A DNA stretch of 64,000 bases, taken from the NCBI RefSeq assembly GCF_000300455.3, contig NZ_CP007215.2:2604001-2668000 (forward strand). The letters are read 5' to 3'. The position numbers and the translations under genes were made by a program. This stretch comes from Kosakonia sacchari SP1. Lineage in GTDB: Bacteria > Pseudomonadota > Gammaproteobacteria > Enterobacterales > Enterobacteriaceae. Numbering within the stretch: position 1 is the first letter of the stretch; each line of letters begins with the position of its first letter. Shown here piece after piece: positions 11,853-54,893 of this stretch. The notes beneath the pieces are model-generated. The model was given only the letters and a program-made list of their open reading frames with translations. It was not told the DNA's origin and ran no database searches.

Positions 11853-14747
11853 TTAGAGATGTTGCATTTTATGTGAAATATAGGATTTCACATTTGGCCA
11901 ATTGTGGACATTTTTCCCTGAGTATATTTCGCTAAATCCCTCAGCAAAGGCTTCTTCTGCGCCCCCTTCACTGCCGCCTTGCCAGTAATAATAATCATCG
12001 GATGCGGGATCTGTATGGCTTAAATCTTGTTCCCAAACCGAAATGAAACTATTACGTCGACTCAAAAAGTCCCCAACATCACCGGTTCCCCTTGGTCCCA
12101 TCAGCGCCTTTTCGCCCAGACTGCGATCAATCGCATGCGCATATTCGTGTAGAACTAAACTCGTTGAGGTATGTCCCTCTGCCAGCGACCAACCTCCGTG
12201 CTGATTTTGGCTTAAAGCAATTATTGTTTCGTCAGGATGCATTCCTTCCGCAGCCCCTTTACCTTCTGCACCTACCCCGGGAACCGAATCCCATGTTAAA
12301 TCATCAGGCCATCCTCTTGGTGTAATGCCTTTGAAGTGATGACGGCTAGGGTGATTGGTAATGTTGTCATTCGTCGCGGTGATAAATTGACCTAATGAAT
12401 GTACTTTTTTCAATATATTCAGGGGGATTTTATGCAGATGGGCTTGTACTTCACTGATATCTATTGGGATATCCTCTGGTGTCGTGCTGGCATACACCAT
12501 TCCAGAAATTATTTCTTTTTTTTCGATAAAATCTGCGATCGCTTCCATATGCTCCCTGGTGATAGGTTCTGAGCTGCTTAATGGGATACTTTCGCTAAGC
12601 GTTGCCCATACCTCGTTATATGCCGCCTCACCATGAACATGGAATATGGCATGAAAAACATCCTGATAACTTTCTACTGGCTCGGCCTGTAAACCGGCGC
12701 GTTGTACATGCGCGGTAAGGGATTTTGCGACGGGTGCAAGCCCATTGTTATCGTGAAGCGTGATGGGGTTGTTGCGCACCATTCTGAAGAGGTTCAGCCC
12801 GTCCACCGTACCCGCAGGGTCGGCACTCAGCCACCGTCCCGCCCACGGCTGGTAATAGCGGTAGCCGTAGTAACAGAGCCCCGTGGCATCCTGCTCCTTG
12901 CCGGAATAACGAATCGTTTTGTAATCCGCCTCCAGCTGGCTGCGGGCGGCAAACAGCGCCGTGCCGCCATAGGGGTAATACTCCTCCTGGCTGATTAACT
13001 CACCGCTGCTGTCCACTTCCAGACTGCTGCTGCCGGTCAGGTTGTCGTAGCTGTAACGAATCGGGTCATTGCTGATGCCGTCAGGCTGACCACTCTCCCA
13101 GTGTAAAACCCGCACCTGCGCGCGGCCGGCTTCGCCAACCGTTATTATCTGCAATTCTTCGGTTGCGCTGCTGCGCAGTTCCAGACCCGGCAGGTAAATC
13201 ACCCGTTTTGTCTGCGTGGTGTTGCCGGTCAGCTGTGAGGTGATTTTGACGATGCGCTGGCTGCTGGCGTCATAGCGGTAACTTTCGCTGTCGTCGGCTG
13301 CGCCGTCGCGGGTGACGGGCGTGACTTTTTGCAACTCCTGGCGCGCCGTCCACAACAGATTCTGCCCCGGTAAAAGCTGTTTCTGCTGCCCGCCGGCGGT
13401 GAACAGCGCATCGACATCGGCCGGGTTTTCCGTAAACGTGCTGAGCACCGCGCGGTTGCTGCGGCTGCTGACTGTAATTGATGTCGTGTAGTTATTGCCG
13501 GACGCGGGTGCGCTGTGCTGAATTTTCGTCAGGTTTCCGGCGTTGTCGTAGGCGTATGTGCGGGAATAATTCGTGTAGGTGGCGTCGTCAAAAGAGGAAT
13601 AGGGTGGAAGGTTGCTGCCCTGCTGTACCGCGTTCGCCATTTCACGCCCGGTCGCGCTGATAAGCTGGTACAAACTGTCGTAGGTGTAGCGGTTTTCGGG
13701 AACCACTTCCTGATTGCGCCAGAAACGCGTCTCCTCGGCATCGTTAGTGATAACCAGCACGTTGCCCACCGGGTCGTATTCGTAGCGCAAATCCTGCAGC
13801 ACTTTTGCAGCAGACAGACGTTCCGTTTTAATACCAATAAGACGCTGCGTTTCCGCTTCATAACTGTACGTGGTTACCACGCCGTTGCCGTGTTCCTCGC
13901 GCAGCTTCTGCCCGGCGGCGGAGTATGACAGGGATTTCACGATAATCTGCTCTGTCCCCCCCTTCACCGTCAGCCAGCTTCCCTTCAGCAGCCCCGCCAC
14001 GTCATACGCCACGCGCTGGAGATTACCTTTCGCGTCGGTGGTGGTGAGTACATTTCCGGCCGCGTCGACCGTGCCGTTGGTCGTGTAGGTTTCGCCCGCC
14101 AGCAGGTCGTTCCACGCCGAGGCATCCGCCCCCTGCCAGTCTGCTTCTGCATCGTCCGGCAGCAACTGGCGGGTGACGGAAAGCGGTACGCCGTTCAGCG
14201 AAACACTGCCCGTTGAAAGCAGACCTGCCGGGTCGTAATGGCTCACTGGCTGACCGGCAAGATTGTGGCTCTGTTCATCTGCGGAATGACCACCCCAGAC
14301 AAACCGTTCGGTTGCGCGTGCGTTTTCCCCGGCAGCCTGCTCAGTAATGCCGAGCAACCGCCCCGGCAGGCTGGCATCTTCATACTGAAAAGTGCGGGTC
14401 ACGGCGGCGCTGCGTTCGTTACCCTCGCCAATATTGCTGACCTGCAAAAAAATCCGCCCGGCGGCGTCGTTCAGCACTACGGTCGTTCCGGCATCGACAC
14501 TCTGCGTGCGCAGCGGCGTACCACCGAGGTCACTGATAAAGCTAAAATTCACCAGCCCGGCGGCGTGCAGGCGCGGGTCAGCGCTCTGAGAGGGCAGACC
14601 GCACGTATCAAACTGATGGCGGGTGATGCGTTCTTCGGTGATGGCCGGGGTGTCCGGATGGCGGTGATAAACGATAGCGCGTACTAGCAGAGCACGGTTA
14701 TCAAGCACCGTGACGGACGGGGTTTTACTGTAAAGTGATGTGCTCAT
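11853..14747 (-). CDS. Rhs/TcC-like toxin with C-terminal zinc metalloprotease domain (rhs1)
   Basis: 964 residues. Residues 1-670 are an RHS-repeat shell (YD-type repeats such as RYEYDPVGNVL, RYSYDNLTGSS) ending in the RHS-associated core (YYQPWAGRWLSADPAGTVDGLNLFR, then NNP...HDNNGL), the autocleavage boundary in TcC and Rhs proteins. There is no signal peptide or PAAR domain, and the start MSTSLYSKTPSVTVLDNR resembles insecticidal Tc-complex C components. Residues 671-964 are a unique C-terminus with HEYAH at 867-871 and a downstream glutamate motif (EEAFAEGF, 931-938), like zincin toxins of the anthrax lethal-factor (ATLF) type. Ribosome site GAGGAAAGG. No TcA or TcB gene is in the window; delivery is unknown. 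Confidence 0.85.
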   Translation of the reverse strand: MSTSLYSKTPSVTVLDNRALLVRAIVYHRHPDTPAITEERITRHQFDTCGLPSQSADPRLHAAGLVNFSFISDLGGTPLRTQSVDAGTTVVLNDAAGRIFLQVSNIGEGNERSAAVTRTFQYEDASLPGRLLGITEQAAGENARATERFVWGGHSADEQSHNLAGQPVSHYDPAGLLSTGSVSLNGVPLSVTRQLLPDDAEADWQGADASAWNDLLAGETYTTNGTVDAAGNVLTTTDAKGNLQRVAYDVAGLLKGSWLTVKGGTEQIIVKSLSYSAAGQKLREEHGNGVVTTYSYEAETQRLIGIKTERLSAAKVLQDLRYEYDPVGNVLVITNDAEETRFWRNQEVVPENRYTYDSLYQLISATGREMANAVQQGSNLPPYSSFDDATYTNYSRTYAYDNAGNLTKIQHSAPASGNNYTTSITVSSRSNRAVLSTFTENPADVDALFTAGGQQKQLLPGQNLLWTARQELQKVTPVTRDGAADDSESYRYDASSQRIVKITSQLTGNTTQTKRVIYLPGLELRSSATEELQIITVGEAGRAQVRVLHWESGQPDGISNDPIRYSYDNLTGSSSLEVDSSGELISQEEYYPYGGTALFAARSQLEADYKTIRYSGKEQDATGLCYYGYRYYQPWAGRWLSADPAGTVDGLNLFRMVRNNPITLHDNNGLAPVAKSLTAHVQRAGLQAEPVESYQDVFHAIFHVHGEAAYNEVWATLSESIPLSSSEPITREHMEAIADFIEKKEIISGMVYASTTPEDIPIDISEVQAHLHKIPLNILKKVHSLGQFITATNDNITNHPSRHHFKGITPRGWPDDLTWDSVPGVGAEGKGAAEGMHPDETIIALSQNQHGGWSLAEGHTSTSLVLHEYAHAIDRSLGEKALMGPRGTGDVGDFLSRRNSFISVWEQDLSHTDPASDDYYYWQGGSEGGAEEAFAEGFSEIYSGKNVHNWPNVKSYISHKMQHL
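12738..14747 (-). repeat. Large direct repeat: shared core of rhs1, copy 1
   Basis: The 2010 bases coding for residues 1-670 of rhs1 are nearly the same as 16459-18468 (rhs2), 3721 bases away in the same orientation. A tract of roughly 250 bases (about 13267-13517 against 16988-17238) looks identical. Similarity stops at the toxin junction. Confidence 0.9.
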
Positions 14748-15612
14748 TAGCCTTTCCTCATTGAAGTTTGTGCTTAATACAACTTGTCGGTTACACAAAA
14801 AGTATAGGCTGCTGGTGTTATTTTTATCCGGGAATTATTTTTAATACTGCTATGAAAAATGAACAAATCTATGACAAGAAATAATAAAATTAATTTTAAT
14901 ATTTAAATGCCAAGCCCTATAAAATCAGCCTTATTATATTCCCCAAAAAACCAGGAACTACCGGTAGTTATAAGAATAAAAACATCAGCAACATAACAAT
15001 ATTCAAAACATCAAGAAAAGATGTTCCCTTACAGACAACAACACACCAGAATTTTTCTCATTACGTATAAAAATCACGCCACCTGTCACACTTAGATTAT
15101 TTAAAAAATATCAAGCCTAACCATTTTTTCACCTCACTAAGTTTATCTTTCCGTTATTTTCAGAAAAATCCTTTTTATTTTGCGGAAAACCCTTCTTTTC
15201 ACATTAACACAGTAGTCCTGATGATTAGCAGAAAATAACCGTTAAGAGAAGAATACAAAGCAAACGGTACGATAAACTGGCACAGCTGAAATCTTATATA
15301 CTAGATCTAAGGCAGCAATCTGAAAGGAATATCTGAAACGTTTTGTTGCTGACCTTAAAGCACTTACGACAGAAGCAACAGAATATCAGCCGGCGTGATG
15401 TCACGCCGGCTGGTCATTTTCCCGGTAAGCGGATGTACCCTCGATCACGAGGTGGGCAAAAAATATGCCCCCCCCCTTTTTTACATGACATGCACATGAT
15501 AAACATCAGCAGGATCTAAATCAAAAATCCGGGCACTGACGCAACATAGAAATCACTTTTTGCCAGATATCTCATATATATTCCTCACAAGTCTTAAAGT
15601 ATTACATATGAA
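14748..15612. other. AT-rich gap between rhs1 and rhs2 with decayed coding fragments
   Basis: About 865 bases, clearly AT-rich, without an intact gene. It must hold the rhs1 promoter. At 15250-15399 two consecutive frames read like protein: one contains KRYDKLAQLKSYILDLRQQ and stops at TGA, the other, shifted by one base position, reads YLKRFVADLKALT and stops in the palindrome at 15399. This looks like a small gene broken by a frameshift, possibly an old toxin tail or immunity gene; I do not recognise it. Confidence 0.35.
15387..15412. terminator. Perfect GC-rich inverted repeat in the rhs1-rhs2 gap
   Basis: CAGCCGGCGTGA and TCACGCCGGCTG separated by two bases. The plus side is followed by GTCATTTTCCC, so it may end plus-strand transcripts; there is no T-run on the minus side. 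It could instead be a recombination or protein-binding site. Confidence 0.5.
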
Positions 15613-18468
15613 TTAATGATGTATTATTGTATAGTGTTGTTTATTTATTTTTATCCCTCCAGGAACCAGTAACTGAGGCCGATAAAATGTTTGTACAACA
15701 CTGTTAATATCCGCAGTGGCTTCATCCTTAAGTTTTTCCCTCGTCCCTTCACCTAATCTTTTAAAATCATTTACCACCGATAGTTTGAGTCCTTCGCTCA
15801 TATCTTTACCGTAATAGATCGAGCCAACAGTAGCCTCTCCTTCATCAGCATCAAAGTTTCGTTGCAGACCGAAGTTAAACTCAATTAAGTCATCTTCTGT
15901 AGCAAAGAGTGCCTTTTTCCTGTCTGAAATCGGCGATCTGTCCAGTGCATTAAGGATATCGTGAGTTTGTAAAAGAGAAAAATCCTTATGATCTTTCATG
16001 GCTTCAAAATCAATATGATAACCAACATTCCCAAATCGACTCTTGCCTTTTTGTCTCTCACTTTTTAGCCCCAAAGAAAAAAATGCGAAATGGGTGGTCG
16101 CTAACATACTTATATCTAAAGCCTCAGTATTTTCCGTATTAAATGCTATCCCTCGTTGCTCAAGTTGATGACGAGATAAAAAATGGACACTACCTTCAGG
16201 ACTTGAAAAATCTTTATCAGAATGATGTGTAATATTAAAAGGAGCCTCGTCAAACTTTTTCAAAAATACTGATTCAAGTGAACCTTCGGCAGGTTCATTA
16301 AAGCGTTTTCTTAGTCTTGCCAGATTACGTCCGGACTGCCGGGCAATAATATCTTGTGCGGCATCAATATCTTCTGGTTCTTCCTCTATATAACCACTAA
16401 ACATTCGACCTTCAGTAAGCATAGTGTAATAAGCCAGTTTGACGGCATCGTCCGCAAGAAATCCGTTCTGATCATTAAATCTTACGGGATTATTCCTGAC
16501 CATCCTGAACAAATTAAGCCCGTCTACCGTGCCGGCAGGATCTGCGCTCAGCCACCGTCCCGCCCACGGCTGGTAATAACGGTAACCGTAGTAATAGAGC
16601 CCCGTGGCGTCCTGCTCTTTACCGGAATAACGAATCGTTTTGTAATCCGCCTCCAGCTGGCTGCGGGCGGCAAACAGTGCCGTGCCGCCATACGGGTAAT
16701 ACTCTTCCTGACTGATAAGTTCGCCGCTGCTGTCCACTTCCAGACTGCTGCTGCCGGTGAGGTTGTCGTAGCTGTAGCGAATCTGGTCATTACTGATACC
16801 GGCAGGTTGCCCGCTTTCCCAGTGCAGCACCCGCACCTGCGCACGTCCGGCCTCTCCTACTGTTATCACCTCTAATTCTTCGGCTGCGCTGCTGCGCAGC
16901 TCCAGCACCGGCAGATAAATCACCCGTTTTGTCTGCGTGCTGCCGCCGGTCAGCTGCGAGGTGATTTTGACGATGCGCTGGCTGCTGGCGTCGTAACGGT
17001 AACTTTCGCTGTCGTCGGCTGCGCCGTCGCGGGTGACGGGCGTGACTTTTTGCAACTCCTGGCGCGCCGTCCACAACAGATTCTGCCCCGGTAAAAGCTG
17101 TTTCTGCTGCCCGCCGGCGGTGAACAGCGCATCGACATCGGCCGGGTTTTCCGTAAACGTGCTGAGCACCGCGCGGTTGCTGCGGCTGCTGACTGTAATT
17201 GATGTCGTGTAGTTATTGCCGGACGCGGGTGCGCTGTGCCGGATTTTCGTCAGGTTTCCGGCGTTGTCGTAGGTGTAAGTGCGGGAGTAGTTTGTGTAGG
17301 TGGCGTCATCAAAGGAGGAATAAGCTGGCAGGCTGCTGTTCTGCTGCACCGCGCTGGCCATTTCGCGCCCGCTGGCGCTGACCAGCTGGTACAGGCTGTC
17401 GTAGGCGTAGCGGTTTTCGGGCACCACTTGCTGATTGCGCCAGAAACGCGTCTCCTCAGCATCGTTAGTGATAACCAGCACGTTGCCCACCGGGTCATAT
17501 TCATAGCGCAAATCCTGCAGCACTTTTGCAGCAGACAGACGTTCCGTTTTAATACCAATAAGACGCTGCGTTTCCGCTTCATAACTGTACGTGGTTACCA
17601 CGCCGTTGCCGTGCTCCTCGCGCAGTTTCTGCCCGGCGGCGGAATACGTCAGGGATTTCACGATAATCTGCTCTGAACCGCCATTCACCGTCAGCCAGCT
17701 TCCCTTCAGCAGACCCGCCACGTCATACGCCACGCGCTGCAGATTACCTTTCGCGTCGGTGGTGGTCAGCACATTCCCGGCCGCGTCGACCGTGCCGTTG
17801 GTCGTGTAGGTTTCGCCCGCCAGCAGGTCGTTCCACGCCGAGGCGTCCACGCCCTGCCAGTCTGCTTCGGCATCGTCCGGCAGCAACTGGCGGGTGACGG
17901 AAAGCGGCACGCCGCTCAGCGAAACGCTGCCCGTCGAAAGCAGACCTGCCGGGTCGTAATGGCTCACTGGCTGACCGGCAAGATTGTGGCTCTGTTCATC
18001 TGCGGAATGACCACCCCAGACAAACCGTTCGGTGGCGCGTGCGTTTTCCCCGGCAGCCTGCTCAGTAATGCCGAGCAACCGCCCCGGCAGGCTGGCATCT
18101 TCATACTGAAAAGTGCGGGTCACGGCGGCGCTGCGTTCATTACCCTCGCCAATATTGCTGACCTGTAAAAAAACCCGCCCGGAGGCGTCATTCAGGGCAA
18201 CGGATGTACCCGCATCCGCACTCTGCGTGCGTAGCGCCGTGCCGTTCAGGTCGCTGAGATAACTGAAATTCGCCAGCCCGGCGGCATAGAGACGCGGGTC
18301 AGCACTTTGTGACGGCAGACCGCGCGCATCAAACTGATGGCGGGTGATGCATTCATCGGTGATGTCCAGGGTGTCCGGATGGCGGTGATACGCGATAGCG
18401 CGTACTAGCAGAGCACGGTTATCAAGCACCGTGACGGACGGGGTTTTACTGTAAAGGGATGTACTCAT
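15613..18468 (-). CDS. Rhs/TcC-like toxin with unrecognised C-terminal domain (rhs2)
   Basis: 951 residues. Residues 1-670 repeat the rhs1 shell almost word for word, through the core RYYQPWAGRWLSADPAG and RMVRNNPV. Residues 671-951 are unique (begins LADDAVKLAYYTMLTEGRMF) and show no motif I can name with confidence; conspicuous segments are SVHFLSRHQLEQRG, TTHFAFFSLGL and FGNVGYHIDFEAM. By position it should be the effector released after RHS-core autocleavage. Start behind GGAGGATCTT. The hypervariable part (15613-16458) is more AT-rich than the shell, typical of exchanged toxin tips. No immunity gene is evident downstream. Confidence 0.83.
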   Translation of the reverse strand: MSTSLYSKTPSVTVLDNRALLVRAIAYHRHPDTLDITDECITRHQFDARGLPSQSADPRLYAAGLANFSYLSDLNGTALRTQSADAGTSVALNDASGRVFLQVSNIGEGNERSAAVTRTFQYEDASLPGRLLGITEQAAGENARATERFVWGGHSADEQSHNLAGQPVSHYDPAGLLSTGSVSLSGVPLSVTRQLLPDDAEADWQGVDASAWNDLLAGETYTTNGTVDAAGNVLTTTDAKGNLQRVAYDVAGLLKGSWLTVNGGSEQIIVKSLTYSAAGQKLREEHGNGVVTTYSYEAETQRLIGIKTERLSAAKVLQDLRYEYDPVGNVLVITNDAEETRFWRNQQVVPENRYAYDSLYQLVSASGREMASAVQQNSSLPAYSSFDDATYTNYSRTYTYDNAGNLTKIRHSAPASGNNYTTSITVSSRSNRAVLSTFTENPADVDALFTAGGQQKQLLPGQNLLWTARQELQKVTPVTRDGAADDSESYRYDASSQRIVKITSQLTGGSTQTKRVIYLPVLELRSSAAEELEVITVGEAGRAQVRVLHWESGQPAGISNDQIRYSYDNLTGSSSLEVDSSGELISQEEYYPYGGTALFAARSQLEADYKTIRYSGKEQDATGLYYYGYRYYQPWAGRWLSADPAGTVDGLNLFRMVRNNPVRFNDQNGFLADDAVKLAYYTMLTEGRMFSGYIEEEPEDIDAAQDIIARQSGRNLARLRKRFNEPAEGSLESVFLKKFDEAPFNITHHSDKDFSSPEGSVHFLSRHQLEQRGIAFNTENTEALDISMLATTHFAFFSLGLKSERQKGKSRFGNVGYHIDFEAMKDHKDFSLLQTHDILNALDRSPISDRKKALFATEDDLIEFNFGLQRNFDADEGEATVGSIYYGKDMSEGLKLSVVNDFKRLGEGTREKLKDEATADINSVVQTFYRPQLLVPGGIKINKQHYTIIHH
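16459..18468 (-). repeat. Large direct repeat: shared core of rhs1 and rhs2, copy 2
   Basis: Partner of 12738-14747. Homologous recombination between the copies would delete about 3.7 kb and leave one shell joined to the rhs1 toxin end. Confidence 0.9.
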
Positions 18469-42113: not shown

Positions 42114-44996
42114 TTAATGTAACAACTGCGAGCTGGTTGGCGCTTTATATCGCTGCATATAAAATTTTAATTCATCAATAAATTCACTCTCTGAAATCGC
42201 ATTGGTATTAATTTTTTTGGCAATATCCTGTGAGAAGTCAATAAAATCTCTCACATTGTTTTCATGCCCCACCAGTGCGGCTCTGCCTATATTTTCAAGA
42301 GAAAGTTTAAGATTCCATCCTTTATCATGTTTCGCTTTTCTTTTTACCGTGTTTTTTAAAAAATTCGTCGCCATTGCCTCGGCGCTGGCCAATGGCATTT
42401 CTATCCCTTCCAGTAAAATCATCTCTGGTTTCTTCGGCGCGATAGCGGCGGCCTCATCAACGGCTTTGATGCTGTTTTCTGACACGGAATGAAGTGCCAC
42501 CGCACTTTCCATATGCTCCCCCTGAACATTTTCAGCGGGTTCTTTAAAATCGCTTTGTTTGATTTTTTCTATTGCTTCCTTTTTTTGCTCTTCGGTAAAG
42601 ACTCGGCGCCCTCTTTTACGCCGGGTATTGCTGGCCATTGCTGTCAGGCTACTTTCCGTTACGTCATCTGCCTGAGCCAGCGCTTCATCCGTCGAAATTG
42701 CCGAAATTTCCGCTGCGCTCTCTTCCACCGGAGAAGCGGTGATCGGTGTGGGTTCACTCTTCTCAGACGGATTCACGCGCAGGGCTTCCAGCGCCTGGCT
42801 CATTTCTTCAGGGCTAAATACTCTGCGTCGTCTGTCGTTTCTTTTACTGTTTTTTATCTCCGTATTACCAGAAATGGACGCTGACGGACTGGATCCTTGC
42901 TCTTCGTCATCCAGCGCCTTCCGCGGCATTAATCCGTCTTTATCGCTCAAGGTCACAGGATTATTTCTGACCATTCTGTAGAGATTCAGCCCATCAAGCG
43001 TTCCTGCCCGATCGCTGGACAGCCATCGCCCCGTCCACGGCTGGTAGTAGCGGAACCCGTAGTAATACAGCCCCGTAGCGTCACGCTCTTTGCCGGAGTA
43101 CCTCATGGTTTTGTAATTTACTTCGGCCTGGCTGCGCGCCGTCAGGAGAGCGGTTCCCCCGTACGGGTAATACTCTTCCATGCTGATGATTTCACCCTCT
43201 CCGCTCAGCTCAAGCTGGCTGCTGCCGACCAGGTTATCGTAACTGTAGCGTGTCTGGTCGTTCGCGATGTCTGCGGGCTTGCCGCTCTCCCAGTGCAGCA
43301 CACGCACCTGCGCCCGTCCGGCCTCGCCGACGATAATCACCTGCAAGCTTTCTTCTGCAGCGCCGTTTGTGGTACTTCGCAGCTCCAGCCCCGGCAGGTA
43401 AAGCACTCGCTGCGTCTGCGTACTACCGCTGGTCTTCTGTATGCCGACTTTCAGGAGCCGCTGGCTACCGCCGTCATAGCGGTAGCTTTCCTGATCGTCT
43501 GCGCTGTCGTCACGCGTCACCGGGCTCACCCTCTGTAACTCGTTACGCGACGTCCAGACCAGGGGCTGCCCCGCCAGCAGCTGTTTCTGTTGTCCACCCG
43601 CCGTGAACAGGGCATCCACATCAGACGGATTAGTGGTCAGTGTGCTTAATACTCCCCGGTTACTGCGATCGCTGACGGTAATATCGGTCGTGTAACTGTG
43701 GTTCGTCGCGGGTGCGCTGTGGCGTATCTGGATCAGGTTGCCGCCATTGTCATAACGATAGGTGCGGATAAAACAAGTATATGCAGAGCTGTCTGTCGGA
43801 AGGGGAACAATGAAGGACGGTAAATTACTGCCCTGCTGATCGGCATTTGCCATCTCACGCCCGGTGGCGCTAATCAGCTGATACAGGCTATCGTAGCTGT
43901 AGGTATTTTCAGGTACGACTTTCTGATTGCGCCAGAAACGGGTCTCTTCCGCATCGTTGCTGATGCTAAGCACATTGCCCACTGGATCATATTCATAACG
44001 TAGATCCTGCAACACTTTCGCACCGGAAACATGACCCTCCGGGCGCGCCGTTTTTATCCCGACCAGGCGCTGCGTCTCCGGTTCATAAAGGTATGTCGTC
44101 ACCACGCCATTACCGTGCTCCTCACGCAACTTCTGACCCGCCGCAGAGTACGTCAGGGACTTCACGATAATTTGTTCTGTGCCACCTTTCACTGTCAGCC
44201 AACTGCCGGACATCATTCCAGCCACATCGTACGCCATACGTTGCTGATGACCCGCTGCGTCGGTGGTCGACAAAATTGCCCCGGTGGCATCGGAGGTTGT
44301 CAGAGTGATATAGGTTTTCGCCTCCAGCACGTCGTTCCATGCGGAAGCATCCTGACCTTGCCAGTTGACCTCCGTGTTCGGGTCGTCCGCATCTTTCAGC
44401 AGATGGCGGGTGACACAGAGAAGCACGCCCGTCAGAGCAACGCTGTCGCGCTGTATAAGACCTGCGGTGTCGTAATAGCTAACAACCAGTCCGGCAAGGT
44501 TCTGCGCCTTCTCCGCATCGCTGTTACCGGCATAGACAAAGCGCTCTGCAATGCGGCCAGCTTCACCGTTGACCTGCTCGGTGATACTTATCGGGCGGCC
44601 CGGCAACGAAGCGTCCTCGTACTGCCAGGTTCGGGTCACGGCCTGATTTCTGTTTTCTGTACCATCGTCAGCGGTGTCAATATTGCTGATTGTCATAAAC
44701 GATCGACCCGCAGCATCGTTCAGCGCCACGGACGTTCCGTTGTCAACACCCTGTGTACGCAGAACGTTTCCGGTCAGGCCAGTCAGATAGCTGAAGTTTG
44801 CAAGGCCAGTGTCGTATAGGCGCGGATCTGCGCTCTGCAGTAAAAAACCACGAGCGTTGTACTGGTGGTGGGTGGTGCGCTCACTGGTGGTGTCCGGCGA
44901 GTCGGGATGACGATGATACGAGACTTCGCGGACGATCAGGCCACGGTTGTCGAGAACCGTGACCATCGGGGTTTTGCTGAATAAAGATGTGCTCAT
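42114..44996 (-). CDS. Rhs/TcC-like toxin with repeated basic motif at the C-terminus (rhs3)
   Basis: 960 residues. The shell (1-688) is of the same type as rhs1 and rhs2 (start MSTSLFSKTPMVTVLDNRG, core YYQPWTGRWLSSDRAGTLDGLNLYR) but clearly diverged. The core has SDRAG where the other two have SADPAG, so one conserved Pro is lost. Residues 689-960 are unique: acidic/Ser-rich and low complexity, with two related basic blocks, RRRRVFSPEE (722-731) and RKRGRRVFTEE (793-803), each followed by an Ala/Glu/Lys helix, and a compact tail (about 858-960). No enzyme motif recognised. Ribosome site AGGAGATT. Confidence 0.83.
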   Translation of the reverse strand: MSTSLFSKTPMVTVLDNRGLIVREVSYHRHPDSPDTTSERTTHHQYNARGFLLQSADPRLYDTGLANFSYLTGLTGNVLRTQGVDNGTSVALNDAAGRSFMTISNIDTADDGTENRNQAVTRTWQYEDASLPGRPISITEQVNGEAGRIAERFVYAGNSDAEKAQNLAGLVVSYYDTAGLIQRDSVALTGVLLCVTRHLLKDADDPNTEVNWQGQDASAWNDVLEAKTYITLTTSDATGAILSTTDAAGHQQRMAYDVAGMMSGSWLTVKGGTEQIIVKSLTYSAAGQKLREEHGNGVVTTYLYEPETQRLVGIKTARPEGHVSGAKVLQDLRYEYDPVGNVLSISNDAEETRFWRNQKVVPENTYSYDSLYQLISATGREMANADQQGSNLPSFIVPLPTDSSAYTCFIRTYRYDNGGNLIQIRHSAPATNHSYTTDITVSDRSNRGVLSTLTTNPSDVDALFTAGGQQKQLLAGQPLVWTSRNELQRVSPVTRDDSADDQESYRYDGGSQRLLKVGIQKTSGSTQTQRVLYLPGLELRSTTNGAAEESLQVIIVGEAGRAQVRVLHWESGKPADIANDQTRYSYDNLVGSSQLELSGEGEIISMEEYYPYGGTALLTARSQAEVNYKTMRYSGKERDATGLYYYGFRYYQPWTGRWLSSDRAGTLDGLNLYRMVRNNPVTLSDKDGLMPRKALDDEEQGSSPSASISGNTEIKNSKRNDRRRRVFSPEEMSQALEALRVNPSEKSEPTPITASPVEESAAEISAISTDEALAQADDVTESSLTAMASNTRRKRGRRVFTEEQKKEAIEKIKQSDFKEPAENVQGEHMESAVALHSVSENSIKAVDEAAAIAPKKPEMILLEGIEMPLASAEAMATNFLKNTVKRKAKHDKGWNLKLSLENIGRAALVGHENNVRDFIDFSQDIAKKINTNAISESEFIDELKFYMQRYKAPTSSQLLH

Positions 44997-48483: not shown

Positions 48484-49677
48484 TTATGCGTGGCTGTACT
48501 CTTTTACCAGCTGGCGCAGATCCAGCTCAGAGGAGTAATCCACGTCCGGCATTGAAAAGCCATTCAATGCATAAAACTCGGTGAGATACCCGGCGAAGTC
48601 ACCAACGGTTTTAAAGTTCTCGGTGGTGACCCGTTTTCTTAGCAACTCCACAGCTTGCTGAACATCCGGGCGCAGCTCGAAATCATCAAGGCGGATCCGC
48701 CGCTCGTCATCCGTGATGACGTTGCCCATTGGCGGGTAAAGGTGGTTCAACATCAGCCTGTGCATCTGCTCAATGCAGGTTTCATGCAACCGCTTCTGCT
48801 TCATTACCTTGTACAGCAACGTAATATATAACGGAAACATAGGGATAAAGGCGCTGGCTTTGGTCACCAGCGCTTTACACACCACCGCATAGGCATGACC
48901 ATTAACGCGCTGGAGCTGTGCGTCAAGATGATCGGCTGTTGCGTGCAGATGGGCTTTCGCCGCGCCTAACGCGCCCTCTTTATAGAGCGGCCACGTTGAT
49001 TTCGGGCCAGTATAAGAGTACGCCACCGTTTTGAATCCCTCGGCCAGCACACCAGCCGCCGACAACATATCAATCCAGCGTTGCCAGTCTTCCCCGCCCA
49101 TGACTTTTACCGTATCGGCAAGTTGTTGTTCGGTCACCAGTTCCAGCGTCTGGTTCACCATCTTGCGGGTTTCCAGGTCAAAACCCGGGCCGGAAAAAGC
49201 TTGCCCGCGCACGCCAAGCGTTGAGGTGTAACGCGTACCATCCGGGCAAATACGCACGCCAGAGGCAACCGAATAGACAAGCAGATCAATGCTGCCGCCA
49301 AACTCCTGCTTAATGTACGCAATCACCTCGTTGCGCGTCGTATCGGAAAAAGCATCCGCGATAAAATTTTTCGCGATAAGCCCTTTCTCATGCGCCCGGC
49401 GACGAAAAAAAATATTGTTATACCATCCGGCGCTGCCCATACCTTTTTCACCCGGACTTTTTTCAAATGAAACGCCAATCGTATCGGCACCGCCACCAAA
49501 GGCTACCGCTATGCGTGAGGCCAGCCCATATCCGGAAGAGGCACCAATCACCAACACCTTGCGCGGACCATAGATTTCCCCATGCGATTCAACATAGTTA
49601 ATTTGTTTATCAATGCCCTGGCGTAAACCTTCAGGATGGCAGTTTTTAGCCACATTGCCTTGAATAATAAGCTCCAT
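48484..49677 (-). CDS. fabV: FabV-type trans-2-enoyl-CoA/ACP reductase (butyryl-CoA formation)
   Basis: 397 residues, the FabV/Ter length. NADH-binding Rossmann motif VLVIGASSGYGLASR (41-55), and the FabV catalytic pair Tyr232-x8-Lys241 (LYKEGALGAAK) with the preceding YSYTGPKSTWP. FabV enzymes reduce trans-2-enoyl-ACP or, as Ter, crotonyl-CoA to butyryl-CoA with NADH, essentially irreversibly and without flavin or Etf. FabI serves fatty acid synthesis in enterobacteria, and this gene is coupled (TGATG overlap) to a MaoC hydratase beside thiolase, ketoreductase, ptb and buk, so a role in butyryl-CoA formation is the better reading. FabV proteins are triclosan-tolerant. Confidence 0.92.
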   Translation of the reverse strand: MELIIQGNVAKNCHPEGLRQGIDKQINYVESHGEIYGPRKVLVIGASSGYGLASRIAVAFGGGADTIGVSFEKSPGEKGMGSAGWYNNIFFRRRAHEKGLIAKNFIADAFSDTTRNEVIAYIKQEFGGSIDLLVYSVASGVRICPDGTRYTSTLGVRGQAFSGPGFDLETRKMVNQTLELVTEQQLADTVKVMGGEDWQRWIDMLSAAGVLAEGFKTVAYSYTGPKSTWPLYKEGALGAAKAHLHATADHLDAQLQRVNGHAYAVVCKALVTKASAFIPMFPLYITLLYKVMKQKRLHETCIEQMHRLMLNHLYPPMGNVITDDERRIRLDDFELRPDVQQAVELLRKRVTTENFKTVGDFAGYLTEFYALNGFSMPDVDYSSELDLRQLVKEYSHA

Positions 49678-50117
49678 CAGTTCACCTCCTCAGCCAGCGC
49701 TTTTTCCAGCGGCGGCAAAACGACGGCTTCACCGACAATAACCTTATCCCCATGCTGATTGGTGCACGTGGTTTTGAGCCGCACCCGGTTTTTTTCACAA
49801 TTAATCGCGATAACTTCCGCCGTCGCCGTAATCGTATCGCCAATAAATGTTGGCTTAATAAACTTGAGGTCTTGTCCGAGATAAATAGAACCGTTACCGG
49901 GTAATTTATTGGCAATGACCGCAGAGATAAGCCCACTCACCAAAATACCATGCACCACGCGTTGCCCGAATATACTTTCCCGCCCTGCACTCTCATCCAG
50001 ATGAACAGGATTGGTATCGCCAGATGCCAATGCAAAATCTGCGACGTCATTATCCGTCAATGTTTTTTTAAACTCTGCACACTGACCAATATGCAAATTG
50101 TGGATTGTATTAACCAT
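49677..50117 (-). CDS. MaoC/PhaJ-type (R)-specific enoyl-CoA hydratase
   Basis: 146 residues, single hot-dog domain. The hydratase-2 motif with catalytic Asp and His is intact (FALASGDTNPVHLDESAG, residues about 28-45), followed by VVHGILVSGLISAVIANKLPG typical of PhaJ. It should interconvert (R)-3-hydroxybutyryl-CoA and crotonyl-CoA, matching the stereochemistry produced by the PhaB-type reductase across the intergenic region. Start at the ATG 50117 behind AAAAGGACG; a GTG three codons earlier is too close to that site. Its stop overlaps the fabV start (TGATG). First gene of the leftward operon. Confidence 0.9.
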   Translation of the reverse strand: MVNTIHNLHIGQCAEFKKTLTDNDVADFALASGDTNPVHLDESAGRESIFGQRVVHGILVSGLISAVIANKLPGNGSIYLGQDLKFIKPTFIGDTITATAEVIAINCEKNRVRLKTTCTNQHGDKVIVGEAVVLPPLEKALAEEVN

Positions 50118-50642
50118 AAAGCACACGTCCTTTTAAATATATTTTGAAAGCGTTTAACGGAAGCAATTAGAGAAACAACTAATTGCATCCATATACACCT
50201 GCTTTTCCCAATTCCGTCAACCCCCATCGAGTTCTCATTAGCTATAAGAGTAACTTTATATTTCTCTTTTCAGATACAGCGCATTGGCAAATCAATTCTT
50301 AAATTAGTTTTTTTTACTTAAGACAAAATCGCAACGCGGAGCCAACCTCATGGCAACTAACAGATAAAAATCCTCTTTATCAACAAGATAAATCCAACAC
50401 CACAAAGAAAGATCTACACGCAATCCTTATTAAAAGCCAAGAAAAAGATCATTATCGACGGAGCAATGACGAATAAAAAAACAAACAGACAAATTCAGAA
50501 AATAAGGTTAATTACGAAAAAATAAGAAGCGATGTAATTCTAAAGCCATCTTTAACAACTTTTAAGTATTGATGCATATCAATACCGCAGAAAGTTCTCT
50601 GCGCATTAATAGTTGAATCATTTAAATCAAAAGGTAATACAA
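50118..50642. promoter_or_regulatory. Divergent control region of the butyrate gene cluster
   Basis: 525 AT-rich bases between the two operons, with no gene. Near the leftward operon is the inverted repeat GCAATTAG-N8-CTAATTGC (50163-50186), a candidate operator or leader hairpin. Near the rightward operon is the FNR box. The middle (about 50280-50540) is A-rich and could be bound by H-NS or hold the leftward promoter; I cannot place that promoter with confidence. Confidence 0.6.
50569..50617 (+). promoter_or_regulatory. FNR box and class II promoter of the thiolase operon
   Basis: TTGATGCATATCAA at 50569-50582 is a perfect FNR consensus (TTGAT-N4-ATCAA). Its centre is 41.5 bases before 50617, and ATTAAT at 50605-50610 sits where the -10 of such a promoter would be (4 of 6 matches). 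The thiolase ATG follows at 50643. Direct observation: the box. Inference: oxygen-repressed, FNR-activated expression. Confidence 0.8.
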
Positions 50643-51830
50643 ATGAAGGACACGGATATTGTCGTTCTTGATTGTGCAAGAACTGCTATCGGCGTACTTA
50701 ATGGTTCTTTGGCAGAAATTAGCGCACCTCAATTAGGCGCTGCGGTGATTAAAGCGCTTCTGGAAAAAACGAGGATTGCGGTAAAAGAGATCGATGAAGT
50801 TATTATCGGCCAGGTCCTTGCCGCAGGCAGCGGGCAAAACCCGGCGCGCCAGACATTAATTCAGGCAGGTATTCCAACCGATGTTCCGGCGCTGACGATT
50901 AATAAAGTATGTGGTTCGGGGTTAAAAGCGCTGCAACTGGCATGGCAGGCGCTGAAATGTGGTGATGCCGAATTAATTATTGCCGGAGGGCAAGAAAGTA
51001 TGAGCCAGGCACCGCATGTTTTACCCCATTCACGCAGCGGCATGAAAATGGGTAACTGGCCAATGCTGGACAGCATGGTGAAGGATGGCCTGTGGGATGC
51101 TTTTCATGATTATCACATGGGCATCACTGCCGAGAATGTGGCCGAAAAATATGCGATCACACGTGAAGAACAGGATGCTTTCGCCCTTGCGTCACAACAG
51201 AAAGCGGCGATCGCGTTAGAAACGCACCGTTTTGCCAGTGAAATTGTTCCGGTTGGCATCACCCGACCTCGTAAAGAGCCCGTCCTGTTTGATACCGATG
51301 AATTTCCCCGTCCGCAAACATCGCGTGAAGGCTTAGCCAAACTCCGGCCAGCCTTTAAAGCCAACGGCACCGTCACCGCCGGCAATGCCTCAGGCGTTAA
51401 CGATGGTGCGGCAATGGTGATCCTGGCTACAGCGAAAAAAGCGCGTGAGCTGGGGATCGCACCGCTGGCCAGGATCGTGGCGTTCGGTACTTCAGGCGTC
51501 TTGCCAGAAATCATGGGAACCGGCCCAATCACGGCGTCTCGCCATGCGCTGGCCAGGTCGAACTGGCAGGTTGATGAGCTGGCTCTTATCGAAGCCAATG
51601 AAGCCTTTGCCGCTCAGGCCATCGCCGTCAACCGGGAAATGGGCTGGGATCTCTCCAGAGTGAATGTCAATGGCGGCGCGATTGCGCTCGGCCACCCTAT
51701 CGGCGCATCCGGTACGCGAATTTTCGTCTCTTTGCTCCATGAAATGCAGCGTAGAAAAAGCAAAAAAGGTCTGGCAACGCTGTGCATTGGCGGTGGAATG
51801 GGCATCGCCGTCACCGTCGAAATGGAATAA
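50643..51830 (+). CDS. Acetyl-CoA C-acetyltransferase (thiolase, PhaA/ThlA/AtoB type)
   Basis: 395 residues, type II biosynthetic thiolase. Nucleophile Cys90 (NKVCGSGLKALQLAW), His351 (NGGAIALGHPIGASG) and Cys381 (LCIGGGMGIA) are all present. It condenses two acetyl-CoA to acetoacetyl-CoA, the entry step of the pathway. The ATG at 50643 follows AAGG; the frame is open ten codons upstream but lacks a site. First gene of a five-gene operon (thiolase, reductase, ptb, buk, small protein) with 2-71 base gaps. Confidence 0.95.
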   Translation: MKDTDIVVLDCARTAIGVLNGSLAEISAPQLGAAVIKALLEKTRIAVKEIDEVIIGQVLAAGSGQNPARQTLIQAGIPTDVPALTINKVCGSGLKALQLAWQALKCGDAELIIAGGQESMSQAPHVLPHSRSGMKMGNWPMLDSMVKDGLWDAFHDYHMGITAENVAEKYAITREEQDAFALASQQKAAIALETHRFASEIVPVGITRPRKEPVLFDTDEFPRPQTSREGLAKLRPAFKANGTVTAGNASGVNDGAAMVILATAKKARELGIAPLARIVAFGTSGVLPEIMGTGPITASRHALARSNWQVDELALIEANEAFAAQAIAVNREMGWDLSRVNVNGGAIALGHPIGASGTRIFVSLLHEMQRRKSKKGLATLCIGGGMGIAVTVEME

Positions 51831-51863
51831 CGCCGCTATGAAGAATGTTTTTAACGTGAGGAA

Positions 51864-52607
51864 ATGATGATGAGTAAAGTTGCGCTTGTAACCGGTGGGA
51901 TCCGCGGTATTGGTGGAAAAATCAGCCTTCGCTTTCTGCTGGAGCATTACCAGGTTATCGCGGTTGATACAGATGCGGATCGTCTGAAAGAGTGGGTTGA
52001 AATGCAGCGCGCAGCAGGGTTTGCCAAAGCCGATGTGATTCGTTGCGACGTCAGCGATTACTCGCAGTGTCAGGACGCGGTCAGCACGCTGCTGAAGCAA
52101 TATGGTCATATTGATGTTCTGGTGAATAACGCGGGTATTACCCGCGATGCAACCTTTAAAAAAATGGATAAATCGCAATGGGATGCGGTTATTCAGGTCA
52201 ACCTGAACAGCATGTTCAATATGACCAAACCCGTTCTGGATAACATGCTGGCAAACCAGCGCGGGCGCATCATTAATATATCGTCGATAAATGGTCAGAA
52301 AGGACAGTTTGGTCAGACTAATTATTCGGCCGCCAAAGCGGGTGTGCATGGTTTCACGAAAGCGCTGGCGCAGGAGGTAGCGCGTAAAAATATTACCGTT
52401 AATACCATATCCCCAGGCTACATCAACACTGAAATGATGCAGGCCATCCCCACCGATGTGCTGGAGGCTATTGTGGCGCAAATTCCCGTTGGTCGCCTCG
52501 GCGAAGCCGATGAAATCGCCGAACTGGCCCTGTATCTCGCCAGTGATAAGGCCGGGTTTATTACCGGCTCCAATATCGCCATCAATGGCGGCCAGCATAT
52601 GTATTAA
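51864..52607 (+). CDS. phaB: Acetoacetyl-CoA reductase, PhaB type
   Basis: 247 residues, short-chain dehydrogenase. Cofactor motif TGGIRGIGG (10-18), NNAG (88-91), catalytic Ser140/141, Tyr154 and Lys158 in SSINGQKGQFGQTNYSAAK, the segment that marks PhaB; ITRDATFKKM and the end NGGQHMY also fit. PhaB enzymes make (R)-3-hydroxybutyryl-CoA, usually with NADPH. No PHA synthase, phasin or depolymerase is nearby, so the product most likely goes to crotonyl-CoA through the MaoC hydratase. Three ATGs in a row begin the gene behind GTGAGGAA. Confidence 0.93.
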   Translation: MMMSKVALVTGGIRGIGGKISLRFLLEHYQVIAVDTDADRLKEWVEMQRAAGFAKADVIRCDVSDYSQCQDAVSTLLKQYGHIDVLVNNAGITRDATFKKMDKSQWDAVIQVNLNSMFNMTKPVLDNMLANQRGRIINISSINGQKGQFGQTNYSAAKAGVHGFTKALAQEVARKNITVNTISPGYINTEMMQAIPTDVLEAIVAQIPVGRLGEADEIAELALYLASDKAGFITGSNIAINGGQHMY

Positions 52608-52678
52608 GGATATGCCATTTCCGGGCCTCACCGGCGATACATCTGGTGAGGCAATATTGGGGACTCAGGATTTTTATC

Positions 52679-53569
52679 ATGCTTGAAAAATTAAGTTCGT
52701 TTGTTGAGCTTGCGCGCAGGAAAAAGCCTAAAATAATTGCCGTGGCCGCAGCAGAAGATTCTCATGCACTCGAAGCCATAAAATGGATCAAAAATGATGG
52801 GCTGGCAGAGGCCATTCTGATTGGTTGCCGGGATAAAATAACCTTGCTCGCCGAAAACCTTAAATTTGATATCAGCCATATGGAAATAATGGATATTCCA
52901 GATAAAGCTGAAGCCTGCAAAGAGGCGGTGCGAGTCGTCAAATCCGGACAAGCGCATATTTTAATGAAAGGGCTTGTCGATAGCGCCATTTATCTGCGAG
53001 CGATTTTAAATAAAGAGACTGGCATCGCGGCATCGCGGCTTGTCACGCAATTAGCCTTTATCGAAAGCCCGCATTATCACAAGCTGTTTGCGATCACCGA
53101 CGCTGGCATCACTATTACACCTGACCAGCGAGATAAAGCCACCATGATTGCCCAGTCGGTTAATGTCCTGCATCAGGTTGGTATTGCAGTGCCCAAGGTC
53201 GCGCTGATTGCCGCCGTGGAGCATATTACGCCCGCAATTGCCGCTACCGTGGATGCCGCGGCGCTGAGTGGCATCACTTACGATAACTGTATTGTTGAAG
53301 GTCCGCTGTCCATCGATCTGGCGTTTAATAAAGCATCCTGCCGACATAAAGGGTTGCATTCCCAGGTTGGCGGCGATATTGACCTGGCCGTCCTTCCGGA
53401 TATCAACAGCGCCAATGTCTTTTATAAAACGGTGATGCAACTTGGCGGAGCATTGAGCGCAAGCACACTGACGGGAACGGCAAAACCAGTGGTATTTACC
53501 TCGCGATCGGACACCGCTAAAACAAAATATTTTGCTATTGCTTGTGCGATTTCTCAATGCAAGGACTGA
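52679..53569 (+). CDS. ptb: Phosphate butyryltransferase
   Basis: 296 residues, phosphate acetyl/butyryltransferase family; the length and the N-terminus (LSSFVELARRKKPKIIAVAAAED) are those of clostridial Ptb rather than Pta. Conserved blocks include LMKGLVDSAIYLRAILN and TDAGITITPD. It converts butyryl-CoA and phosphate to butyryl phosphate and CoA. The start at 52679 follows CAGGA; the stop is two bases before the buk start. Ptb-Buk pairs are hallmarks of butyrate-forming Firmicutes and are unusual in Enterobacteriaceae. Use on other acyl-CoAs (propionyl, isobutyryl) is possible. Confidence 0.92.
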   Translation: MLEKLSSFVELARRKKPKIIAVAAAEDSHALEAIKWIKNDGLAEAILIGCRDKITLLAENLKFDISHMEIMDIPDKAEACKEAVRVVKSGQAHILMKGLVDSAIYLRAILNKETGIAASRLVTQLAFIESPHYHKLFAITDAGITITPDQRDKATMIAQSVNVLHQVGIAVPKVALIAAVEHITPAIAATVDAAALSGITYDNCIVEGPLSIDLAFNKASCRHKGLHSQVGGDIDLAVLPDINSANVFYKTVMQLGGALSASTLTGTAKPVVFTSRSDTAKTKYFAIACAISQCKD

Positions 53570-53571
53570 CT

Positions 53572-54642
53572 ATGTATATTTTGGTGATAAACCCAGGCTC
53601 AACGTCTACGAAAATTGCGATATATAACAACCGCACGCAGCTTATTTACCGTACATTTAACCATGATGAAAAAGAGATGGCGGCTTTTTCCACAGTTTTG
53701 GATCAAAAAACCTTTCGCAAACAGATAATTCTCGACATATTGCAGGAACATGGTTTTCGCTTAAACGACATTGATATATTTATTGGTCGCGGTGGTCTGG
53801 TGCGTCATTTGCAAAGCGGCGTTTATCGTATTAATGATGACTATATTCACGATGCCAGTGTCGGTCTCAACGGTGAACATGCATCTAATCTGGGAGCCAT
53901 ATTGGCCTGGGAACTCGCGCGGGCGGTAAATAAAGAAGAGATGGCGTATACCGTTGATCCTGTCGTCGTCGATGAATATGACCCGATTGCAAAGATATCC
54001 GGAATGCCGGAAATTTCACGCGTTGGTGCTTTTCACGCGCTAAATCAAAAGGCAGTCGCGCATCGTTATGCCACGGAAACAAACCGCCCCTATTCTGCGC
54101 TTAAATTGATCGTGGCCCATTTAGGTGGCGGTATCAGCGTGGGCGCTCACCGCGATGGTCGCATTGTGGATGTGAATTCAGCCCTGGGTGGCGATGGGCC
54201 ATTCTCGCCGGAACGCGCAGGCCGCCTTCCCAGCTATGAATTATTAAAACTGTGCTTTTCAGGGCAGTACACGTATGCGCAATTGAAGAAGAAGTTGATT
54301 GGTGAAGGTGGCGTTTATGGTTATCTCGGCACCAAGGATATCCGCGATGTTGAACAACAGATTATGGATGGGAATAAAAAGGCGCGGGATATTCTGGAAG
54401 CCATGGCCTACCAGATAGCCAAAGAGATCGCCTCGTGCGCCGCCGTACTAGAGGGATGGGTCGATGCCATCATTATTACCGGCGGAATAGCCTATAACAG
54501 AAGAATTGTCGAACTTATTCGTCAGCGCGTCAGTTTTATTACACCTGAAATCGTCATTTATCCTGGTGAGGATGAAATGTTCGCACTGGCAGATGGCGTA
54601 CTGGCCGCGATGGAAGGTCAAAGGGAGTTAGTCGAATACTGA
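53572..54642 (+). CDS. buk: Butyrate kinase
   Basis: 356 residues, ASKHA-fold acetokinase family, Buk length (acetate kinase is about 400). N-terminal phosphate motif INPGSTSTKIAIY, the substrate block AHLGGGISVGAHRDGRIVDVNSALGGDGPFSPERAG, and the ATP-binding ITGGIAYNRRIV. It makes butyrate and ATP from butyryl phosphate and ADP, giving the pathway its substrate-level ATP. Starts behind AAGGACTG immediately after ptb. Confidence 0.94.
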   Translation: MYILVINPGSTSTKIAIYNNRTQLIYRTFNHDEKEMAAFSTVLDQKTFRKQIILDILQEHGFRLNDIDIFIGRGGLVRHLQSGVYRINDDYIHDASVGLNGEHASNLGAILAWELARAVNKEEMAYTVDPVVVDEYDPIAKISGMPEISRVGAFHALNQKAVAHRYATETNRPYSALKLIVAHLGGGISVGAHRDGRIVDVNSALGGDGPFSPERAGRLPSYELLKLCFSGQYTYAQLKKKLIGEGGVYGYLGTKDIRDVEQQIMDGNKKARDILEAMAYQIAKEIASCAAVLEGWVDAIIITGGIAYNRRIVELIRQRVSFITPEIVIYPGEDEMFALADGVLAAMEGQRELVEY

Positions 54643-54655
54643 AGAGGTATAAATG

Positions 54656-54856
54656 ATGAGTAAAAAGAATATTGCACTGTTTCCAAATCAAATCACCGTG
54701 ACAAAACCTAATGGCAGCGTATGCCTGCACATCAATTTCAACGATGGGCGGGATGATATTTCAATTGAGCTAAATAGTACGGAGGCAGAACATCTTTCCT
54801 GCGCGCTGGGTTCCCGGCAACGTGAAATCCTTATTGCGGCCGAATATGCCGATTAA
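54656..54856 (+). CDS. Small protein of unknown function ending the butyrate operon
   Basis: 66 residues (MSKKNIALFPNQITVTKPNG ... AAEYAD), behind GAAGAGG, 13 bases after the buk stop and before the operon terminator. It is soluble and predicted beta-rich in the first 40 residues, helical at the end, without known motif. It is not Lys/Ala-rich, so not phasin-like. Position suggests a dedicated role in the pathway (complex assembly, regulation), but nothing in the sequence shows it. An upstream adjacent ATG (54653) is an alternative start. Confidence 0.75.
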   Translation: MSKKNIALFPNQITVTKPNGSVCLHINFNDGRDDISIELNSTEAEHLSCALGSRQREILIAAEYAD

Positions 54857-54863
54857 AAAATAA

Positions 54864-54893
54864 CGGGAACCTGTCTGGTTCCCGCCTTTTATT
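54864..54893 (+). terminator. Terminator of the butyrate operon
   Basis: CGGGAACC-TGTCT-GGTTCCCG followed by CCTTTTATT. It closes the rightward operon right after the small protein gene. Confidence 0.88.

Follow-up and report, generated by a model that had tools for sequence, protein, structure and literature searches.

The clostridial conversion of acetyl-CoA to butyrate proceeds through Thl, Hbd, Crt, Bcd/EtfAB, Ptb and Buk, and native butyrate formation is, to our knowledge, no part of textbook enterobacterial mixed-acid fermentation. In an engineered Escherichia coli carrying atoB, hbd, crt, ter, ptb and buk, a set meant to restore redox balance, butyrate is reported to make up 90% of products (PMC6429758). 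A 2022 survey lists one proteobacterial genome of 636, Kosakonia sacchari, as having a butyrate pathway (PMC9403272), so that the genome prediction is already partly in print and ours is not the first report. The survey describes the Hbd-Crt-Bcd/Etf route and treats Bcd-EtfAB as universal, and PhaB, PhaJ and FabV do not appear in its main text. Here, we describe a block of six enzyme genes in a 64,000-nucleotide stretch (the window) spanning positions 2604001-2668000 of the 4,902,027-bp single-contig genome of Kosakonia sacchari SP1. Its best explanation, to which we give a probability of roughly 80%, is a natural fermentation module that forms butyrate by the (R)-hydroxyacyl route.

The block extends from 48484 to 54642 of the window, with fabV-maoC on the minus strand and a divergent thl-phaB-ptb-buk operon on the plus strand, all six open reading frames (ORFs) being intact. 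The fabV (or ter) gene, at 48484..49677, encodes a trans-2-enoyl-CoA reductase assigned to a Ter-type clade and predicted to convert crotonyl-CoA to butyryl-CoA, and maoC (or phaJ), at 49677..50126 with a likely ATG at 50117, encodes an (R)-specific enoyl-CoA hydratase. Across an AT-rich gap of 525 bp (33% G+C) follow thl (likely ATG at 50643, ending at 51830), for an acetyl-CoA acetyltransferase (thiolase), phaB (51867..52607), for an acetoacetyl-CoA reductase, ptb (52679..53569), for a member of the phosphate butyryltransferase family, and buk (53572..54642), for a butyrate kinase. An enzyme for each of the six consecutive steps from acetyl-CoA to butyrate, with a Ptb-Buk end, is encoded side by side. 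A preliminary description had listed these genes with their order, families, location and intact motifs, all borne out by ORF calls, NCBIfam and Pfam searches and motif alignments; its butyrate reading is likewise supported, as no step lacks an enzyme, the whole block is found again at other sites, three in all, and roles in lipid or polyhydroxybutyrate (PHB) synthesis are disfavoured.

In the pathway that we propose, FNR would bind a box at 50569-50582 under anoxia and switch on thl-phaB-ptb-buk together with a small downstream gene, orf7. The thiolase would condense two acetyl-CoA into acetoacetyl-CoA, PhaB would reduce this to (R)-3-hydroxybutyryl-CoA, probably with NADH, and MaoC would dehydrate the product to crotonyl-CoA, which the Ter-type FabV would reduce with NADH to butyryl-CoA without a flavoprotein or ferredoxin. 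Ptb and Buk would then release butyrate with the gain of one ATP, and, with acetyl-CoA supplied by pyruvate formate-lyase (PFL), the balance would run from glucose to butyrate, 2 formate and 3 ATP.

The thiolase scores above the NCBIfam cut-off of TIGR01930 (473 against 241 bits) and retains the motifs NKVCGSG, GHPIGASG and CIGGGMG, and Buk exceeds the curated cut-off of TIGR02707 (482 against 289 bits). For MaoC, the closest PDB matches are the (R)-specific enoyl-CoA hydratases 5cpg and 1iq6 and the DTNPVH motif is intact; none of its six NCBIfam matches reaches its cut-off, while the Pfam MaoC model does (81 against 27). NF006045, a curated model for an enoyl-CoA hydratase fused to a phosphate acyltransferase, aligns over its first part to MaoC and over its second to Ptb, in each case under the cut-off, and so provides an independent link between those two functions. 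PhaB scores above the acetoacetyl-CoA reductase model TIGR01829 (348 against 302 bits), and its PDB matches are acetoacetyl-CoA reductases. In an alignment, an Asp terminates the second strand of PhaB in all eight butyrate-type blocks and not in the PhaB of a related Scandinavium plasmid. An Asp at this place is the usual sign of NAD(H) use, which suggests NADH as the cofactor, a neighbouring Arg leaving the choice open. In PhaB1 of Cupriavidus necator, use of NADPH is reported to be linked to R40 (PMC8904767). Within the block, to which the search was confined, none of the classical Hbd, Crt and Bcd-EtfAB occurs, and the middle steps fall instead to members of the short-chain dehydrogenase/reductase (SDR), MaoC and FabV families.

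The enoyl reductase is the only FabV in the genome and carries the catalytic Tyr232 and Lys241. FabV was present in 41 genomes of the class, and the loci of 30 of these entered a 49-row tree, in which the FabVs of the eight blocks (cluster FabVs) stand apart from the 30 gammaproteobacterial FabVs and join the Ter of Clostridium acetobutylicum (CaTer) with support of 99/97. A 41-row tree, which omitted 14 of the 30 (picked by list position) and the second FabV of genome G399, and took in the second FabVs of two genomes with Vibrio-like first FabVs, supported the CaTer join at 100/98. An approximately unbiased (AU) test rejected the grouping of cluster FabVs with lipid-type FabVs at p 0.0075, for a group chosen post hoc, after the tree had been seen. 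The Ter of Treponema denticola (TdTer) falls in another clade, which weakens the Ter-clade assignment, and by identity the cluster FabV is about equally distant from CaTer (47%), TdTer (46%) and Vibrio FabV (46%). At 41 columns the cluster FabVs agree with each other and differ from all 33 lipid-type FabVs, and CaTer shares 10 of these and TdTer 3. At the counterparts of TdTer residues 283 and 287, which we take to line the acyl pocket, the cluster FabVs have Phe/Tyr and Phe (277 and 281), CaTer Tyr and Phe, and the 33 lipid-type FabVs Ala and Val/Met; the chosen pocket columns, SFYKK(F/Y)FYY in cluster FabVs, match CaTer. The family named in the preliminary description stands, but the protein appears better called a Ter-type enoyl-CoA reductase. 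The second FabVs included in the 41-row tree (L188 1252-2451 and L189 1258-2454) are also Ter-type, sister to the cluster FabVs, and each lies beside what we take to be a tesA-like gene.

The same divergent six-gene layout occurs in eight genomes, namely the window and loci L091 and L103-L108, which comprise seven Kosakonia and one genome of another genus (G115). Because six genes recur in identical arrangement in eight genomes, the layout is not a product of chance; the search for adjacent copies that the preliminary description had suggested thus yielded a recurring unit in three chromosomal contexts. Among 15 Kosakonia genomes, ptb is found at at least 69% identity in seven, and these seven hold the complete block; Buk reaches 96-97% identity in K. 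pseudosacchari and K. quasisacchari. According to the SP1 genome paper, sequence obtained in an earlier run was substituted for 227 disrupted genes (PMC4149035); the block is nevertheless intact in three other genomes of the sacchari group.

In the sacchari group (4 of the 15), umuC and smrA flank the block. These two genes abut in five Kosakonia, all without the block, at about 5-51 bp as judged by alignment ends. A second Kosakonia group (3 of the 15) carries the block at a different site, flanked by what are presumably a LacI-type regulator and a peptide-transporter gene, and in these genomes about 780 bp separate smrA from the end of umuC or of its fragments; in the remaining three, umuC was not found beside smrA, one of them having a weak piece. 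In G115, the neighbours are, as we take them, sufI-like and aldo-keto reductase genes. The two Kosakonia groups share 68-84% identity in their block proteins, somewhat under that of SmrA and Ogt (86-88%). As part of the same overall explanation, the patchily shared block is probably a horizontally moving module, for which one gain with relocation or two gains fit equally.

Matches to buk at E<=0.001 occur in 270 of 295 genomes of the family, all but five at the level of acetate kinase (best E 9e-17 or weaker), and the five exceptions are G000, G115 (66%), G041 (60%), G065 (59%) and G180 (38%). At E<=1e-40, buk was found in 5 of 394 genomes drawn evenly from the order and in 3 of 369 drawn from the class, the window's own genome being counted in both. 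None of 5,426 E. coli genomes has a locus covering 80% of thl-phaB-ptb-buk, and of the 19 plasmid records, out of 72,556, with a buk match at E<=1e-30, one is enterobacterial. FabV, sought in 30 of 58 loci carrying ptb-buk, was present in 8 of the 30.

Upstream of thl lies a perfect FNR-type box, TTGATGCATATCAA (50569..50582, plus strand, 60 bp before the ATG), which is the sole exact one in the window; boxes with at most one mismatch number 7 window-wide against a mean of 2.5 in shuffles. Such a box precedes thl in all seven Kosakonia blocks at 60-63 bp, reading TTGACGCATATCAA in the other sacchari-group blocks, also at 60 bp, and TTGACATTAATCAA in the second group, at 63 bp in a promoter that is otherwise unalignable with that of the sacchari group. 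From this arrangement we infer that FNR may bind the predicted box and place the thl operon under anaerobic control. The fnr gene itself lies three genes from the block, but this closeness is no evidence of control because fnr is an ancestral neighbour of smrA, near which it is found in all 15 Kosakonia.

Several points weigh against butyrate production or its anaerobic control. Among the literature matches listed, mainly open-access, none apart from the genome survey bears on butyrate measured in Kosakonia. Ptb, placed inside its family by Pfam PF01515, falls short of the curated TIGR02706 cut-off (275 against 410.5 bits) and appears to be a divergent member; Ptb and Buk might act on different acyl groups, and propionyl-CoA might be a substrate of the thiolase. 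FabV scores above the NCBIfam enoyl-ACP (acyl carrier protein) reductase equivalog cut-off NF043048 (456 against 400 bits), a model that may or may not separate Ter from lipid-type proteins. CaTer is a long branch and the clade was named after inspection of the tree; moreover, 13 columns are invariant among lipid-type FabVs in a residue that the cluster type lacks, and CaTer and TdTer each retain that residue at 6 of them. As for the promoter, the G115 block has no FNR-type box, which leaves the box in seven of eight blocks; a box with at most one mismatch arises by chance in about 3-5% of gaps in shuffles, and in 1-3% when confined to the last 150 bp; and a promoter scan listed, on the plus strand, no sigma-70-type site ahead of thl.

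The shortfall of Ptb, together with a thiolase score under the PRK05656 cut-off, leaves room for a block that yields another or a mixed acid (valerate, hexanoate, or a branched or substituted one), with thiolase, FabV, Ptb and Buk taking other chain lengths. We regard this as unlikely, as the large side chains of Phe281 and Phe/Tyr277 in cluster FabVs would fit a short acyl pocket at the presumed pocket positions and the block holds no additional enzyme gene. In favour of other lengths, C6 production by engineered E. coli is reported to have made use of T. denticola Ter (PMC12667485).

It is considerably less probable that fabV is a spare, triclosan-resistant enoyl-ACP reductase standing merely beside a 3-hydroxybutyrate or PHB-type operon. 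Its NF043048 score would fit such a role, as would the absence of fabV and maoC from 3 of 11 thl-ptb-buk loci (the Scandinavium plasmid, G065 and G615), but at the other 8, spread over three sites, both accompany phaB. Furthermore, a separate FabI with 94% identity to E. coli FabI is encoded in the genome, lipid-type FabVs form a separate clade, and G115 carries one FabV of each type, so that the FabI and the FabV trees together disfavour a role in lipid synthesis. That the set runs in reverse, degrading butyrate or crotonate, is very improbable, for although Ptb, Buk, MaoC, PhaB and thiolase are presumably reversible, Ter/FabV enzymes presumably act in the reducing direction and the FNR-type box points to anaerobic expression.

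Butyrate formation therefore remains our favoured reading, and two features that the preliminary inventory had missed, the FNR-type box and a seventh ORF, add to its six enzymes. This ORF, orf7 (54653..54856, plus strand), is the last gene of the thl operon and encodes a 67-aa protein without an assigned family; the end given in that inventory, 54856, is in fact its stop codon. By tblastn, orf7 follows buk in all seven Kosakonia blocks, at 83-90% identity among sacchari-group members and 35-37% for those of the second group, and G115 has at the equivalent place a 65-aa ORF of 24% identity, missed by tblastn at E 0.01. Seven columns are invariant across all eight members, and the ratio of nonsynonymous to synonymous substitution rates (dN/dS) is about 0.17-0.45, below 1, in the four pairs computed. 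Two of the eight members were scanned against Pfam and NCBIfam and had no match, and an AlphaFold model (pLDDT 79, pTM 0.58) had no PDB match at E<=0.001. As a guess, ORF7 could be a small regulator or partner of Buk or Ptb. On the Scandinavium plasmid, buk is followed by a hypothetical gene that by eye does not resemble orf7 and was excluded from the alignment.

Just past orf7, a bidirectional stem-loop resembling an intrinsic terminator (54862..54886) closes the thl operon; with 10 pairs it has the most among nine terminator-like sites, where shuffles gave a mean of 7.6 such sites. An Rfam scan across the block found nothing. Elsewhere in the window, three RHS/Tc-toxin-repeat proteins (11853-14798, 15613-18468 and 42114-44996) have similar cores and differing C-terminal ends, that of the first matching the Pfam ATLF domain.

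Related modules occur in other Enterobacterales. Plasmid pSg66741_1 of Scandinavium goeteborgense (L129 8372-13101) carries a winged-helix regulator with thl, phaB, ptb and buk between transposases; no maoC or fabV lies near this module, and G041, which contains this contig, gave no FabV match at E<=1e-20. Operons of the order thl-ptb-buk-adc-acs are found in G065 and G615 (L093 5891-11987 and L124 6729-12886; Enterobacterales in the GTDB sense), adc and acs belonging to the acetoacetate decarboxylase and acetate-CoA ligase families; no FabV match was found in G065, and G615 has two FabVs elsewhere. Judged by gene content, the plasmid module would end at (R)-3-hydroxybutyrate, and the adc-acs operons at acetoacetate or acetone, a possible ATP-yielding acetone route. 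Two further ptb-buk pairs (L125 7453-10947, adjoining an aldehyde-dehydrogenase-like gene, and L126 7564-9578) are about 42% identical to the window's buk and probably serve a different pathway.

Tentatively, and at somewhat less than even odds, we suggest that a family of mobile ptb-buk modules, all yielding ATP, exists in Enterobacterales, its members leaving the C4-CoA ladder at acetoacetate/acetone, (R)-3-hydroxybutyrate or butyrate, the last being an evolved, flavin-free, FNR-switched counterpart of the engineered redox-balanced pathway with an ORF7 of its own. The acetone-type and 3-hydroxybutyrate-type loci make the system testable as modular. If the butyrate reading is true, a plant-associated relative of E. 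coli would offer a set of enzymes ready for use in butyrate or butanol work and an example of a facultative anaerobe gaining a clostridial product through gene transfer, and it would caution against spotting butyrate producers by Bcd-Etf alone. Among the literature matches listed, we did not find the (R)-route, the Ter-type FabV, the control box, ORF7 or the module series.

Compared with known systems, the block resembles the clostridial pathway in its overall conversion, thiolase start and ATP-yielding Ptb-Buk end, and differs in its enterobacterial host, its FNR-type box, the (R)-hydroxyacyl steps by SDR and MaoC enzymes instead of Hbd and Crt, and the flavin-free Ter-type reductase instead of Bcd-EtfAB. 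Its FabV belongs to the same family as the Ter proteins of C. acetobutylicum (4EUE, which we take to be the trans-2-enoyl-CoA reductase of that species) and T. denticola (4FBG) and has the same catalytic Tyr and Lys pair. With the PHB genes phaA, phaB and phaJ it has the thiolase, PhaB-type reductase and PhaJ-type hydratase families in common, but it ends in Ptb-Buk, and PHB synthesis was rejected on the ground that polyhydroxyalkanoate (PHA) synthase PhaC has no match in the genome (as a control, the PhaC query matched one of 14 named genomes, Caulobacter). Finally, Ter in place of Bcd-Etf, the Ptb-Buk end and acetyl-CoA from PFL are common to the Kosakonia block and to the engineered E. coli pathway as reported (PMC6429758), from which the block differs in being natural, in taking the (R)-route and in forming a single native unit.

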